Shown piece after piece: positions 17,287 through 22,733 of a DNA stretch of 64,000 nucleotides (position 1 is the stretch's first letter; every line of letters starts with the position of its first letter). Source of the stretch: Acidobacteriota bacterium (GTDB lineage Bacteria > Acidobacteriota > Terriglobia > Bryobacterales > Bryobacteraceae); the NCBI GenBank assembly GCA_017307505.1, contig JAFKEE010000017.1, positions 186,001-250,000 on the forward strand, given 5' to 3'. A program made the translations under genes and the position numbers. Under the pieces are notes generated by a model. That model saw only the letters and a program-made list of their open reading frames with translations, did not search any database and was not told where the DNA came from.

Positions 17287-18318
17287 CTAGGGCGTGGGCA
17301 GAGGGGCGCCCCGAGAAAGGGTGCGCGGGTCGTCGAAGAGGGCTTTGTGGGCGTCGCCGGCGCGGCGGTCGAAGATATCAGACCAGCCCATGAACCAGAC
17401 CCAGCGCGGCTGGCTGTTGAGCACTTCGGCGGAGGGCGGCTGGCCCACCTCGCCGAGCGCCACGGGCTTGCCGGCGGCGAGGGCGACAAGGTCGTCGTAA
17501 TAGCTCTGCTTGAATTCGCCGTAGACGTCGGTGGCCAGTACATCGACGTATTGGAGGCCCGGGAAGAAGTCGTAGTAGGGGCTGGTGGCGCGGCCGGTGT
17601 GCGCGTTCTCGTTCCAGACCCAGATGAGGTTATCGAGGCGGTGGAAGTTTACCAGGCGCTCGTAGGTCATGCGGTAGAGGGCGATGTAGCCGGTCTCGCC
17701 TTTGCGGCCGCCCCACCAGAACCAGGTGCCGTTGTTCTCGTGATAGGGCCGCCAGAGGACAGGGATCTTCGCGTCGCGAAGCTTCTTCAGATGACCCGCC
17801 ACGACGTCGAGTTGGGCCAGCCAGCGGCGGTTGAGTTCGGTGCCGGGCGTAATGAGGGCCGCCCACTGGTCGTCGGTGAGTTTAGCCTGGACACTGCCGC
17901 GCCAGCCGCTGCCGGCGGAGACGGGCTCGTCGTCGATGGGGCGGACGGCATGCCACATGAGGGTGATGATGGAGCCGGCGGCGTACTGCTTCTTCGCTTC
18001 CTCGATCATGGCGTCGCGGCCGGCGATGGAGTCTTTGTCGTCGCCGCCGGTGAAGCCGAAGTCGGAGCCCCAGACATAGGGGTACTTGCCGACTTTCGCG
18101 GCGAGATGGTCGCTGTGCCGGGAGCGATGATTGGGGAAGTTGTGCTGGCCGGAGAGGATGGACTTGCCGGAGAGGGCGCAGAGGGTCCGCAGCAGGCTGC
18201 GCGCCTCCGGCGTGGCGTTCGGGTTGACGGGCTCACAGGGGGCCGGGACCGGCGAGAGCAGCGACGGCTGGGCAAAGGCGCTCATGGCCAGCAGGAGAGG
18301 GGCGGCGCGTTTCCACAT
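17287..18318 (-). CDS. Secreted glycoside hydrolase family 26 (beta-mannanase-like)
   Basis: The 343-residue protein has a signal peptide (MWKRAAPLLLAMSAFAQ) and a (beta/alpha)8 GH26 domain. Motifs include SGQHNFPNH, YVWGSDFGF, TLMWHAVRP, the acid/base region RPYHENNG with Glu184, WVWNENAH, and the nucleophile region VALGEVG with Glu290. GH26 enzymes mostly cleave beta-1,4-mannan, some beta-1,3-xylan or glucan. Length fits a single catalytic domain without a carbohydrate-binding module. It is a stand-alone gene upstream of which the ABC-F gene runs in the same direction. Confidence 0.93.
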   Translation of the reverse strand: MWKRAAPLLLAMSAFAQPSLLSPVPAPCEPVNPNATPEARSLLRTLCALSGKSILSGQHNFPNHRSRHSDHLAAKVGKYPYVWGSDFGFTGGDDKDSIAGRDAMIEEAKKQYAAGSIITLMWHAVRPIDDEPVSAGSGWRGSVQAKLTDDQWAALITPGTELNRRWLAQLDVVAGHLKKLRDAKIPVLWRPYHENNGTWFWWGGRKGETGYIALYRMTYERLVNFHRLDNLIWVWNENAHTGRATSPYYDFFPGLQYVDVLATDVYGEFKQSYYDDLVALAAGKPVALGEVGQPPSAEVLNSQPRWVWFMGWSDIFDRRAGDAHKALFDDPRTLSRGAPLPTP

Positions 18319-18347: not shown

Positions 18348-19982
18348 TCAGGAATGGATGCCCGGCGCTTCGTGGCCGGTGCGGGCTACGTACTCGATGT
18401 AGGAGCCGGGATAGATGTGGGGGTTGCGGTCGCTCTCGTCGCCGCTGAGCTCCAGGACGCGGGAGCCGAGGCCGCGCAGGAAGGTGCGGTCATGGGAGAC
18501 GAAGATCATGGTGCCTTCGAACTCCTTGAGGGCGTCGACGAGCATCTCTTTGGTGGCGAGGTCGAGGTGGTTGGTGGGCTCGTCGAGGACCAGGAAGTTT
18601 GGCGGATCGTAAAGCATGCGGGCCATGGCGAGGCGGGACTTCTCACCGCCGGAGAGGGCGCGGATGGGCTTCTCGACGTCGTCGCCGCTGAACTGGAAGG
18701 CCCCGGCGAGGGTGCGCAGGGAGCCGATGCCATCGAGGGGGAAGTCGCGCTGCAACTGCTCGAGGACGGTGAGGTCGTAGTCGAGCACGTCGAGGGACTG
18801 CTGAGCGAAGTAGCCCATCTTGAGGCTGGCTCCGAGGCGGACGGTGCCTTCGTCGGGCTGGAGGGCTCCGGCGATCATCTTAAGGAGCGTGGTCTTCCCC
18901 GCCCCGTTGCGGCCCATGACGGCCCAGCGTTCGCCGCGACGGACGGTGAAGTTGAGACCCTGGTAGATGGTCCGCGTGCCGTAGCTCTTGTGGAGATTCT
19001 CGATGACGGCGACCTGATCGCCGGAGCGCGGCGGGACGCGGAACTCGAACTTCACGACCTGGCGTTTCTTGGGGAGTTCGATGCGTTCGATCTTGTCGAG
19101 GGACTTGATGCGGCTCTGGACCTGGGCGGCTTTGGCGGCGTGGGTCTTGAAGCGTTCGATGAAGCGCTGCTGCTTGGCGAGCATGGCCTGCTGGCGGGTG
19201 AAGGCGGCCTGCTGGTTGGCCTCGCGGATGGCGCGCTCGCGTTCGTAGAAGTCGTAGTTGCCGGAATAAGAGACGATTTCGCCGGCGTCGATCTCGACGA
19301 TCTTGGTGACGATGCGGTTCATGAACTCGCGGTCGTGCGAGGTCATGAGGAGGGTGCCGGGGAGCGACTTGAGGAACTGTTCGAGCCAGATGATGGACTC
19401 GATGTCGAGGTGGTTGGTCGGCTCGTCCATGAGCAGGATGTCGGGCCGGCCCAGGAGGACGCGGGCGAGAGCGACGCGCATCTTCCAACCGCCGGAGAGG
19501 GCTCCGACATCGCCGTCGATCTGTTCTTCTGAGAAGCCGAGTCCGCTGAGGACTTCGCGGGCCTGGGCTTCGATGGTGTAGCCGCCGAGGTGCTCGTACT
19601 CTTCCTGGACCTCACCAAAGCGGGTGAGGATGCGTTCCATGTCGCCGGCCTGATCGGGGTCGCCGAGCGCGTGGTTGAGGGCTTCGAGTTCGTGGTGGAG
19701 GTCGCCGACGCGGCCGCTGCCGGCGATGGCCTCATCGAGGACGGAGCGGCCGTTCATCTCCTCGACGTCCTGGCGGAAGTAGCCGACGGTGAGCTTTTTG
19801 GGCACGGAGAGCTCGCCCTCGTCGGGGAACTCCTCGCCGACGATCATGCGGAAGAGAGTGGTTTTGCCGGAGCCGTTCGGACCGACGAGGCCGACCTTTT
19901 CGCCGGGGTTGAGCTGGTAGGATGCCTCAACGAAGATGAGTTGCTTGCCGTACTGTTTATTGACGTTGGAGAAAGAGATCAT
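18348..19982 (-). CDS. ABC-F family ATPase (ribosome-associated type)
   Basis: The 544 residues from MISFSNVNKQYG contain two ATP-binding cassettes. The first has GPNGSGKTT, signature LSGGWKMRVALARVLL and DILLMDEPTNHLD; the second has GRNGAGKTT, LSGGEKSRLAMARML and FLVLDEPTNHLD. Between them lies a charged helical linker (about KQQRFIERFKTHAAKAAQV) typical of ABC-F proteins, which lack membrane domains and act on the ribosome. The usual ABC-F start is at 19982, yet it has no clear ribosome binding site and the frame stays open upstream to 21086. The protein may thus be made as a 912-residue fusion, or from both starts. Confidence 0.93.
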   Translation of the reverse strand: MISFSNVNKQYGKQLIFVEASYQLNPGEKVGLVGPNGSGKTTLFRMIVGEEFPDEGELSVPKKLTVGYFRQDVEEMNGRSVLDEAIAGSGRVGDLHHELEALNHALGDPDQAGDMERILTRFGEVQEEYEHLGGYTIEAQAREVLSGLGFSEEQIDGDVGALSGGWKMRVALARVLLGRPDILLMDEPTNHLDIESIIWLEQFLKSLPGTLLMTSHDREFMNRIVTKIVEIDAGEIVSYSGNYDFYERERAIREANQQAAFTRQQAMLAKQQRFIERFKTHAAKAAQVQSRIKSLDKIERIELPKKRQVVKFEFRVPPRSGDQVAVIENLHKSYGTRTIYQGLNFTVRRGERWAVMGRNGAGKTTLLKMIAGALQPDEGTVRLGASLKMGYFAQQSLDVLDYDLTVLEQLQRDFPLDGIGSLRTLAGAFQFSGDDVEKPIRALSGGEKSRLAMARMLYDPPNFLVLDEPTNHLDLATKEMLVDALKEFEGTMIFVSHDRTFLRGLGSRVLELSGDESDRNPHIYPGSYIEYVARTGHEAPGIHS

Positions 19983-21086
19983 CGGGAACCAAAGGGGACA
20001 AACGCCGCCGGACGGCGGTGTCGCACGTTGAGGCAGTCTTCTTCCAGTGTACAAAGCGGGGTGGCGGTGCCGCGCGGGCCGGGTGGCGGCGGCGATGTCC
20101 GGGGCCCGGGGGATCGGGGCTGTGAAGCTGGGGCGCGGGTCCGGGCTCAGAGGTTGGGAGGGGGTGACGGGCGCAGGTTCCAGTGGCAGGAAAGGGGCCA
20201 GGCGGTGGTGGGTTTGTTCGGCACTGGAATCTGAAAGGGACTGCTGAGACGGAGGTTCTGGAGTGGGGGCGGCTGGGTCTCGGCGGTCCGGGCTGGGTGG
20301 GATTTGGCTGGGCCGTTGGGTTTGTTCGGCACTGGGATTTGAAAGCGACTGCGGAGGTGTAGGTTCTGGAGGGACGCCGGCTGGGTCTTGGGGGTCCGGG
20401 CGGGCTGGGCTCTCGTTGGGCAGTTGGGTTTGTTCGGCACTGGATTTGGTTTGGAGCGGTTCTGGGGCGAGAGGAGGAGTCAGGCCGGGTTCGTGGGTCG
20501 GCATGCTGCCGGCTTGCCCGTCTGAGTCTGGATGAGAGGCGGCGGCAGGGCCGGCGAGAGAGGTTCTTCCTTCGAGCGCGGCCGACAGGGCAAGGGTGCG
20601 CATGGCTGCGGCTTCGGCCGGCGTGCGAGGCGGATCGGGGTAATAGAAGCGGGCTATGGCCGTCTCGGCCTCGCGGGTGCGGGCCTGGATCCAGCCGTCA
20701 TAGCGGCGGAGCGATTCCAGGTAACTGCCCTGGCTTTTCACCCACTCGATGGCCTTTTCCTCGTTGCCACCGGCGTACTCGATGGCCGCGTTGAAGAGGG
20801 CTCGTTCCCGGGCCTCGAAGACCCGCAGGTGGCCCGCGAAGATCCACCAGTTGAAGACGAGTTTGCGAAGTTGGGGCTCCGCGATGGCGGCTGAGTTCTG
20901 GAGGGCCAGATTGCTGATGTGTTCTTCGAGGCGAGCGGAAAGCCGATGTTTGCGGGCGTAGGCGTGCGTCTTGCAGGCGTTCGCGGAGACCTTGCGTTTT
21001 CCTTCCACCGTCCGAGGACCGGTGGATTTCTGGGCGTTGGCACGATTCGCGGCCAGGCGCCGGGGGGAGAGAACGGTATTCGACAT
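19983..21086 (-). CDS. In-frame N-terminal extension of the ABC-F gene (helical domain plus Pro-rich repeats)
   Basis: These 368 codons begin MSNTVLSPRRLAANRANAQKS and continue without a stop into the ABC-F domain. Residues 1-160 are charged and helical, opening with ANRANAQKSTGPRT and GKRKVSANACKTHAYA. I recognise this as the N-terminus of a widespread acidobacterial hypothetical family usually encoded as a free-standing gene. Residues about 195-340 are a low-complexity Pro/Ser/Gln linker with a 36-residue tandem repeat (SAEQTQ). The last 25 residues look like translated leader sequence (PPSGGVCPLWFP), suggesting fusion by loss of a stop codon. The start has AGGCGG eight bases upstream, inside a terminator-like hairpin. 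Confidence 0.6.
20211..20440. repeat. 108-bp tandem repeat coding a Pro-rich linker
   Basis: The motif GGTTTGTTCGGCACTGG recurs at 20211, 20319 and 20427, an exact 108-base period with degenerate filler, giving two full units and a partial third. Read on the minus strand it codes for 36-residue repeats beginning SSAEQTQ or PSAEQTQ and rich in Pro. The period is a multiple of three, so expansion or contraction keeps the frame. Confidence 0.85.
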
Positions 21087-21112
21087 AAAAAAGCCGCCTG
21101 TTTGGGGCGGCT
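21087..21112 (-). terminator. Terminator-like hairpin with U-tract abutting a start codon
   Basis: On the minus strand AGCCGCC (21112-21106) pairs with GGCGGCT (21098-21092) over a seven-base loop, and TTTTTT (21092-21087) follows immediately, directly before the ATG at 21086. It has the full form of a Rho-independent terminator and also includes the only candidate ribosome binding site, so it could act as an attenuator. Confidence 0.7.
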
Positions 21113-21662: not shown

Positions 21663-22733
21663 ATGAATAGCTTGTACTATCTCGGCCTCGATGTGCACAA
21701 GAAGACTATCAGCTACTGCCTTAAACTTGGCGACGGCTCCATTGCCGCCGAGGGCACGGTGAGTACACAACGGAAGCCCATGGAGGCTTGGGTCAGCCGA
21801 CTGCCCACCCCTTGGTGTGGAGCTATGGAGGCAACTCTGTTTACGGGCTGGATCTACGACTTTTTGCTGCCTCATTCCGAGTCGCTTCAGGTCGCGCACC
21901 CTGCCATGCTCAAAGCGATTTCGGCTTCCAAGAAGAAGAACGACAAAATTGATGCCCGCAAGGTGGCGGACCTGCTGCGATGCAATCTGCTGCCAACTTG
22001 CTACATGGCGCCGCCGGAGTTACGGGAACTGCGCCGACTCCTGCGCTACCGGAGTTTGATGGTGCGCCAGGCGGTCCGCATGAAGAACAAGACGGCAGGT
22101 CTGCTGATGGATGTGGGAGCTGAGTACAACAAGGAAAAGCTGCATCAAACTGGCTATTTTCGCGATTTGCTGGAGACCGTCGAGCACGTACCCGATTCCG
22201 TGAAAGACCTGCTCAAGATCAGCCGCGGAGCCGCCGAGCTATTCGACGAGGCGCAGCGGCGCCTGGTACTGGGCCTTTTGCGCAATCCACTTCTCAAGCA
22301 ACGCGTCACGCGGCTGAGGAGCATCGGCGGAGTCGGCGAGATTCTGGCGCTGACCTGGGCCGTTGAGGTTGGGGAGCCTGACCGGTTCCCGTCGGTGGGG
22401 CATGCTCTGAGCTACTGTGGGCTGACCAGCGCGCAGTTCAGTTCGGCCGGCAAAGACCAGCGGGCTCCGATATCCAAACAACGCAACAAACATTTACAGA
22501 CGATTCTGATTGAAGCCGCCAAGGTGGCCCCACTGTGGAACCCGCAGCTCAAACTGGTGCACGAACGGGAACGAACCCGGGGCAATGCCAACCGAGCCAC
22601 GTTGGCCGTGGCTCGTAAACTGGTGGCCTACCTGTTGGCGGTGGATCGCAGCGGCCTGGAATTCCAGCCGCGCGCTATCGCTGAGAAAGAAACCGAACAC
22701 CTGGAGGAGCGGGCTGTAATGCCAGCGCAATAA
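21663..22733 (+). CDS. IS110-family transposase (DEDD recombinase)
   Basis: The 356-residue protein is full length and shows no frameshift. The N-terminal RuvC-like domain has a DEDD set: Asp10 in YLGLDVHKK, Glu56 in GAMEAT, and Asp94/Asp97 in KKNDKIDARK. The C-terminal transposase-20 domain contains IGGVGEILALTWAVEVGEP and SYCGLTSAQFSSAGK, with the serine region expected to attack DNA. GAGGAG lies nine bases before the ATG. These enzymes act with a bridge RNA encoded in the element. The intact frame suggests recent activity. Confidence 0.95.
   Translation: MNSLYYLGLDVHKKTISYCLKLGDGSIAAEGTVSTQRKPMEAWVSRLPTPWCGAMEATLFTGWIYDFLLPHSESLQVAHPAMLKAISASKKKNDKIDARKVADLLRCNLLPTCYMAPPELRELRRLLRYRSLMVRQAVRMKNKTAGLLMDVGAEYNKEKLHQTGYFRDLLETVEHVPDSVKDLLKISRGAAELFDEAQRRLVLGLLRNPLLKQRVTRLRSIGGVGEILALTWAVEVGEPDRFPSVGHALSYCGLTSAQFSSAGKDQRAPISKQRNKHLQTILIEAAKVAPLWNPQLKLVHERERTRGNANRATLAVARKLVAYLLAVDRSGLEFQPRAIAEKETEHLEERAVMPAQ

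Follow-up and report, generated by a model that had tools for sequence, protein, structure and literature searches.

In a 64,000-nucleotide stretch of an Acidobacteriota genome (contig JAFKEE010000017.1, positions 186,001 to 250,000; hereafter the window), the gene for an ABC-F ATPase shares one uninterrupted reading frame with an upstream gene for a helical domain and its proline-rich repeat tail. We interpret this arrangement as an in-phase gene overlap, in which the stop-poor repeat tail has overrun the neighbouring ABC-F by chance and the ABC-F is made mainly from its own start, and we give this interpretation a probability of roughly 0.7. The open reading frame (ORF) occupies 18348..21086 on the minus strand and, in the ORF analysis, is a single ATG-started frame of 912 amino acids with zero internal stops. 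Along its 912 codons a ANRANAQKSTGPRT-type domain is followed by the Pro-rich tail and then by a complete ABC-F, which starts at codon 369 (MISFSNVNK) and spans codons 369-912. A preliminary description of the locus had stated that no stop separates the domain from a complete ABC-F beginning with this sequence, and the 912-codon frame, the Pfam domains and a second genome all bear it out.

The features of the frame are given below with the evidence for each in brackets, where dN/dS is the ratio of nonsynonymous to synonymous substitution, G000 denotes the genome of the window, G006 a congener with a two-contig assembly, and G005 a further relative.

18348-18350, minus strand: stop codon of the ABC-F
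18351..19982, minus strand: ABC-F ATPase, 544 amino acids (Pfam, NCBIfam, solved chain, dN/dS)
19983..20062, minus strand: ABC-F leader block, about 80 nt (alignment of G000, G006 and G005)
20055..20591, minus strand: Pro-rich tail on 108-bp repeats, with almost no codon signal (codon score, GC by position)
20209..20219, minus strand: DNA repeat motif, copy 3
20317..20327, minus strand: DNA repeat motif, copy 2
20425..20435, minus strand: DNA repeat motif, copy 1, GAACAAACCCA
20592..21086, minus strand: N-terminal domain of about 165 codons, ANRANAQKSTGPRT family, predicted all-helical (own-genome matches, alignment, AlphaFold2, codon score, dN/dS)

The fused frame in related genomes

A functional gene fusion is expected to appear as one open frame in more than one genome, and this is the case here. 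When 41 genomes (the window's own and 40 relatives) were searched for the ABC-F at a threshold of E 1e-150 or better, it was found in 12, with the domain in the same frame in only two of them, G000 and G006. In the congener the domain and the ABC-F again lie in one unbroken open frame, of 1,130 codons, which encodes 1,099 amino acids when read from its first start codon. Between the two genomes the ABC-F is 99% identical and the domain 89% identical over 173 aligned residues, while the stretch ahead of the ABC-F is 187 codons longer in G006 and aligns best at the copies of the repeat motif. The synonymous divergence (dS) of the domain is 0.455, about three times the 0.158 of the ABC-F, and at another domain locus common to both genomes, where the neighbour is FolD, domain and enzyme agree at 0.225 and 0.218.

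A stop removed by a sequencing or assembly error was considered, as the window's own genome is a 75-contig draft, and was set aside as hardly credible because G006 independently carries the same unbroken arrangement in a two-contig assembly and with a different tail. The preliminary description had further supposed that a stop codon was lost from the frame. This is not demonstrated, since no locus with both the domain and the ABC-F was seen to have a stop between them, and G005 is simply without the domain. A stop or frameshift in related strains, which the preliminary description had named as evidence against the fusion, turned up in part: the homologous leader in G005 has a TGA and a one-nucleotide length difference, but G006 speaks to the contrary.

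The other ten genomes have the ABC-F alone, in open frames of 545-628 codons. At two of them (G007 and G008; L021 and L022) an unrelated upstream frame stops immediately ahead of the ABC-F GTG start and in phase with it, an arrangement that is not a fusion and shows how nearly neighbours can approach an in-phase junction. Species-representative genomes were also scanned and gave 400 candidate stretches, of which 383 encode relatives; the best 80 were kept and 73 of these were assessable, with five not parsed and two running off the contig. The domain is in frame with the ABC-F at none of these 73 loci from the best 80 of 383 (median of 13 open codons upstream), and at one of the best 80, L152, the domain motif lies elsewhere in the locus. 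The two comparisons are not independent, since no fewer than six of these ten relatives (G003, G007, G008, G009, G021, G023) recur among the loci of the scan.

These results bear on the possibility that the fusion is functional, such that a long disordered linker would carry the domain to the ribosome, or the ABC-F to the target of the domain, while an internal start would give the short ABC-F and the dual products would tune ribosome access. One ORF in two species, with no stop anywhere between the parts and with purifying selection on both domain and ABC-F, argues for a function of this kind; its absence from the 73 assessable loci and the ten other relatives, which are overlapping sets, argues against it. 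Together with the evidence on the junction and on sister loci given below, we consider it unlikely.

Coding signal in the tail and leader

The domain belongs to a dispersed family with 16 matches in G000, 34 in G006, 27 in G005 (one of them the ABC-F leader only) and 10 in G003. We took 55 domain neighbourhoods from these genomes (all 16 from G000, including the window, 19 of 34 from G006, 16 of 27 from G005 and 4 of 10 from G003) and used the 49 that hold the strict motif of the family, dropping L074, L075, L092, L093, L095 and L101. The domain alignment has 48 sequences.

Codon usage was scored against 30 long ORFs of the window, with the fused ORF included in the training set, an inclusion that could bias the scores of its own parts upwards but not downwards. 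The domain scores 0.28 and the ABC-F 0.47, with the tail at 0.02 and the 24 codons that lead up to the ABC-F ATG at −0.26. The preliminary description had taken the last 25 codons for translated leader, and the negative score, set against the +0.47 of the ABC-F, upholds their leader-like character. Across the 48 family copies the domains average 0.323 and the first 150 tail codons 0.018; the tail's own frame still scores higher than its other two (−0.184 and −0.141). The GC content at codon positions 1, 2 and 3 has family values of 0.69/0.50/0.83 in the domains and 0.68/0.63/0.67 in the tails, and is 0.76/0.65/0.66 in the tail at the window locus. The coding signal and protein constraint that a functional fusion should carry across its junction are not seen here.

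An observation in its own right is that the tails of L097 and L098 in G005 consist of long STQPEQSKP-type repeats that are nearly alike, and that L097 enters a synthetase gene where L098 does not.

The roughly 80 nt ahead of the ABC-F ATG are common to G000, G006 and G005 by alignment (in which the starts set for G007, G008, G012 and G017 are 2-3 codons off). In G005 the ABC-F is 94% identical, no domain lies ahead of it and other genes stand upstream. Its leader block has a one-nucleotide difference in length, and an in-frame TGA interrupts the frame upstream. Since G005 has the block without the domain, the block serves, or once served, as the leader of the ABC-F independent of the domain, which argues against a fusion maintained for its function. 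The junction nearly devoid of codon signal argues in the same direction, as does the dN/dS of 1.16 between G000 and G006 over the last 30 codons ahead of the ABC-F, which is near 1 on only 10 differences in 90 nt; the substitutions look neutral at the protein level. Folding of the leader is not better than that of shuffled sequences (z of 0.28).

Phase of tail overruns at sister loci

If fusion to a downstream gene were functional, in-phase junctions should be more frequent than chance allows. An overrun was scored where a tail stayed open as far as the beginning of the following gene on its strand; orthologs were counted once, and the first gene met was the one counted. The 49 copies yield nine independent overrun loci, four in phase and five out of phase. 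The in-phase partners are the ABC-F (G000, G006), FolD (G000, G006; L064/L084), a GH95 enzyme (G006; L079) and a glutamyl-tRNA synthetase-type enzyme (G005; L097). The out-of-phase partners, all shifted by +1, are a GGACT protein (L063), a MIP channel (L065 and its ortholog L086), an XdhC protein (L099), a sodium:solute symporter (L104) and a gene without a Pfam match (L078). Four or more of nine are expected at a rate of 1/3 with a probability of 0.35, or 0.26 for four of eight when one doubtful locus is dropped, so in this small sample in-phase junctions do not exceed chance, and the phases at sister loci count against a functional fusion. A possible GH95 arrangement in G000, split across two contig ends (L062, L128), was left uncounted. 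The GH95 protein begins MLPKPTRRHLLQAAAL, which we read by eye as a twin-arginine export signal, and since it reads this way, a long N-terminal fusion would bury the signal.

The available text of PMC2542354 describes same-strand overlaps as arising by mutation of the upstream stop, with a phase bias explained by composition. The tail overruns resemble those overlaps, as far as that text describes them, in that an upstream frame enters the next gene. The +1 shift at all five out-of-phase loci can be equated with phase 1 of that account (PMC2542354, as available) only as an assumption. The tails also differ from the overlaps treated there in being repeat arrays, and the in-phase class falls outside the paper's two phases, at least in its available text.

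The repeat as a DNA-level element

The motif GAACAAACCCA lies at minus-strand positions 20209, 20317 and 20425, a spacing of exactly 108 bp, or 36 codons, against 0.01 expected by chance in the window. The core is GAnCAAACCCA within a consensus of about 15 bp around GAGSGAWCAAACCCAYY, with a weaker AATCC 10-14 bp upstream. Genome counts used the spelling GNNNGANCAAACCCA, which excludes the window's own three copies, with the reversed motif as control; motif and control number 96 and 7 in G000, 106 and 4 in G006, 42 and 1 in G005, 9 and 1 in G003, and 0-9 and 0-5 in each of the other 57 genomes. Arrays of the motif are present in three large genomes of one genus, with counts near the control level in most other relatives searched.

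The motif also occurs away from the domain. We took 31 neighbourhoods in G000 for motif copies beyond the known domain loci, and tblastn with 47 domain queries gave no hit in them at E 0.001, several of these neighbourhoods lying at contig ends. Two or more motif copies are held by 17 of the 31, and none of these 17 arrays overlaps a called gene; stops interrupt all three frames in nine of the 17. Examples are L116, L117, L124, L129, L138 and L140 in G000 and L225-L231 in G006. Among the 15 arrays with a called gene next to them, 11 are on the same strand as that gene and 4 on the opposite one, which is suggestive only.

Within the protein family the motif is read in more than one frame. Of the copies in the 25 tails with GNNNGANCAAACCCA, one reading frame accounts for 37, another for 15 and the third for a single copy, and the tails of L079 and L110 mix frames. 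By our reading, the third frame would turn the common TGAG start of the motif into a stop. The motif is also more alike than its flanks between G000 and G006, with 334 of 390 positions identical against 776 of 1269 in eight domain-free array pairs (26 of 28 copies; an open frame is present in some of the arrays), and 109 of 147 against 231 of 433 in four tail pairs (10 copies; the window and FolD pairs, which have no GNNNGANCAAACCCA copy, were dropped), a difference that may be inflated because the alignment anchors at the motif. Given the arrays outside genes, the reading in several frames and the identity of the motif, a repeat at the DNA level is the best account of the peptide repeats, which would be its by-product. 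The 36-residue repeats of the preliminary description are real in their 108-bp spacing, and it is their standing as a protein feature that gives way, as the same repeat is found outside called genes.

Repetitive extragenic palindromic sequences and the bacterial interspersed mosaic elements that they form (REP/BIME) are likewise short, high-copy, clustered and outside genes, as described in the accessible parts of PMC2817692 and PMC3733652. They are defined by a palindromic unit, and the consensus here, from 93 distinct copies, is by eye non-palindromic. Relative to what those parts of PMC2817692 and PMC3733652 describe, the repeat here also differs in that copies within the listed G000 arrays share one direction and no transposase is linked to them. 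An Rfam scan of 12 loci matched neither the arrays nor the junction; its sole match is a signal recognition particle (SRP) RNA at L129:1510-1607, outside the array. In the literature searched we found no description of the domain-ABC-F fusion or of the repeat.

The helical domain and the region upstream of it

The AlphaFold2 model of codons 1-165 has a mean predicted local distance difference test score (pLDDT) of 86.6 and is predicted to be all-helical. None of 135 Foldseek matches of this model to the PDB reaches E 0.001, there is no match worth naming in Pfam, NCBIfam or PHROGs, and nothing in Pfam or NCBIfam matches the whole 368-residue part before the ABC-F at E 1. The dN/dS of the domain between G000 and G006 is 0.165, which indicates that it evolves under purifying selection.

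At 30 of the 49 domain loci (neighbourhoods L061-L105) a gene for a partner protein of about 160 amino acids lies upstream on the same strand, so the domain gene is often the second of a two-gene unit. The partner has only weak Pfam matches below the cut-off and weak PHROGs matches, with no named family. It was not detected at the window locus or its G006 ortholog, nor at 17 other copies. The features that flank the fused frame are as follows.

17287..18318, minus strand: GH26 glycosyl hydrolase, downstream of the ABC-F in G000, G006 and G005 (Pfam Glyco_hydro_26 2.1e-53, synteny)
21092..21112, minus strand: terminator-like hairpin, its T run touching the domain ATG (RNA fold)
21663..22733, plus strand: IS110-type transposase adjoining the domain gene (Pfam Transposase_20 8.4e-18, DEDD_Tnp_IS110 1.1e-16)

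IS110 material occupies the usual position of the partner gene both in the window and at the G006 ortholog, where the relative is partial and aligned beside the domain gene. In both G000 and G006 (L059) a strong hairpin and its trailing run of six or seven T's reach precisely to the domain ATG, with a folding energy of −15.2 kcal/mol (z of −2.76) in the window and −23.7 kcal/mol (z of −3.96) in G006; no such hairpin was seen by eye at 46 other domain starts. Terminator-like sites in the region number 2 against an average of 1.7 in shuffles, so the signal lies in the fold strength and the presence in both species rather than in the count. No Shine-Dalgarno sequence is visible by eye at the domain ATG, and no sigma-70 promoter was found between 19900 and 21300 of the window.

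This configuration could be that of a decaying half-unit, in which IS110 would have replaced the partner, the hairpin would silence the domain gene and the fused frame would be a hardly read relic. It fits the partner gene found at 30 of 49 loci but not at the window locus and its G006 ortholog, where IS110 material lies, as well as the hairpin with T6/T7 at the ATG in both and the lack of a visible Shine-Dalgarno there. However, a domain dN/dS of 0.165 does not look like decay, and 17 other copies are also without a detected partner. We regard this explanation as unlikely.

The ABC-F protein and its extension

The downstream part has two defining features of an ABC-F, namely a tandem pair of ABC ATPase domains on a single chain (Pfam ABC_tran PF00005, 1e-54, two stretches) and the inter-domain linker (ABC_tran_Xtn PF12848, 1.1e-24, ORF residues 597-679). 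It scores 432 bits against the NCBIfam ribosomal protection-like ABC-F model NF000355 (cut-off 380), and its best solved relative is YheS (9nlh_H, 386.6 bits, match over residues 1-505). Against the NCBIfam model PRK10636, which we take to be YheS, the score is 434.6 bits, below the equivalog cut-off of 917 bits; since it falls under this curated cut-off, we call the protein YheS-like and not YheS. The likeness to YheS-type proteins (9nlh_H, 9vvi_W) is one of sequence match. The window protein differs in having 544 amino acids against 647 in 9vvi_W, and in the unrelated helical domain and repeat tail in frame ahead of it. It is single-copy in G000, where no other match reaches E 1e-150, and its dN/dS between G000 and G006 is 0.025.

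N-terminal extensions of ABC-F proteins have precedent, which lends a functional fusion some plausibility. Eukaryotic ABCF1/ABC50, ABCF2, ABCF3/Gcn20 and New1 are extended at the N-terminus by long repetitive stretches, for some of which partners are known, and as in the window the repetitive region precedes the first ABC domain (PMC6723617, in its accessible portion). The same portion of PMC6723617 places bacterial terminal extensions preferentially at the C-terminal end, which counts against it. The eukaryotic extensions described there are charged or consist of Y/N/Q/G-rich repeats, while that of the window is Pro-rich, built from a DNA repeat and found in two species only.

Discussion

We propose that a domain gene of the dispersed family came to sit upstream of the ABC-F in the lineage of G000 and G006, and that its stop-poor repeat tail, open in one frame, runs through the ABC-F leader and by chance meets the ABC-F start in phase. 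Any ribosome that started at the domain ATG and finished would then have to yield the 912-residue fusion. The ABC-F is probably translated mainly from its own ATG as a 544-residue protein, so the internal start anticipated in the preliminary description is likely and two products are possible. Logically, some of the 912-residue fusion is probably made, since the domain is under purifying selection and no stop lies between the parts; its share of the product is probably minor, given the terminator-like hairpin whose six T's directly adjoin the domain ATG.

Several observations weigh against a chance overlap. Tails are kept open in one frame: from 150 codons past the domain motif, with downstream genes entered in frame included in the lengths, the median open length is 286 codons in frame 0 and only 61 and 57 in the two remaining frames (49 copies; P of 7e-12 and 7e-10). 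When the 12 loci whose tails enter a gene are set aside, the medians become 230, 62 and 77 (37 copies; P of 1e-7 and 4e-6). Since frame 0 is open far beyond chance, the tail is not plain non-coding DNA. One frame is also open throughout in 8 of the 17 domain-free arrays. The fused frame survives in G006 despite the 187-codon difference in the tail, and the in-phase FolD pair is kept in both G000 and G006. At L065/L086 and L078 the frame continues beyond the out-of-phase gene and terminates in phase with another gene further on. Finally, the domain gene is probably translated, as its dN/dS of 0.165 suggests, and its complete product must then be the fusion.

One could go further and suppose that the two-gene unit, with a portable stop-free repeat tail, settles before housekeeping genes and repeatedly yields N-terminal fusions (ABC-F, FolD, glutamyl-tRNA synthetase-type, GH95), and that the helical proteins bind the repeat, which would make the whole a genome-wide self-targeting system; we consider this quite improbable. 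The new architecture suggested in the preliminary description is not supported as a functional one: the repeats belong to the DNA level, the junction has almost no coding signal, the phases at sister loci are chance-like, and the arrangement was not found at the 73 loci or in the ten relatives.

The locus is a warning case that unrelated genes of a GC-rich genome can come to share a long open frame, even a conserved one, with no new architecture arising from it; a 912-residue "ABC-F" may well be what annotation pipelines report here. The more interesting by-product of the analysis, compared with the fusion, is a motif of about 15 bp that is kept both in intergenic arrays and in the tails of a protein family, where it is read in either of two stop-free frames. 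A DNA-level element carried in this way within coding sequence would be unusual.

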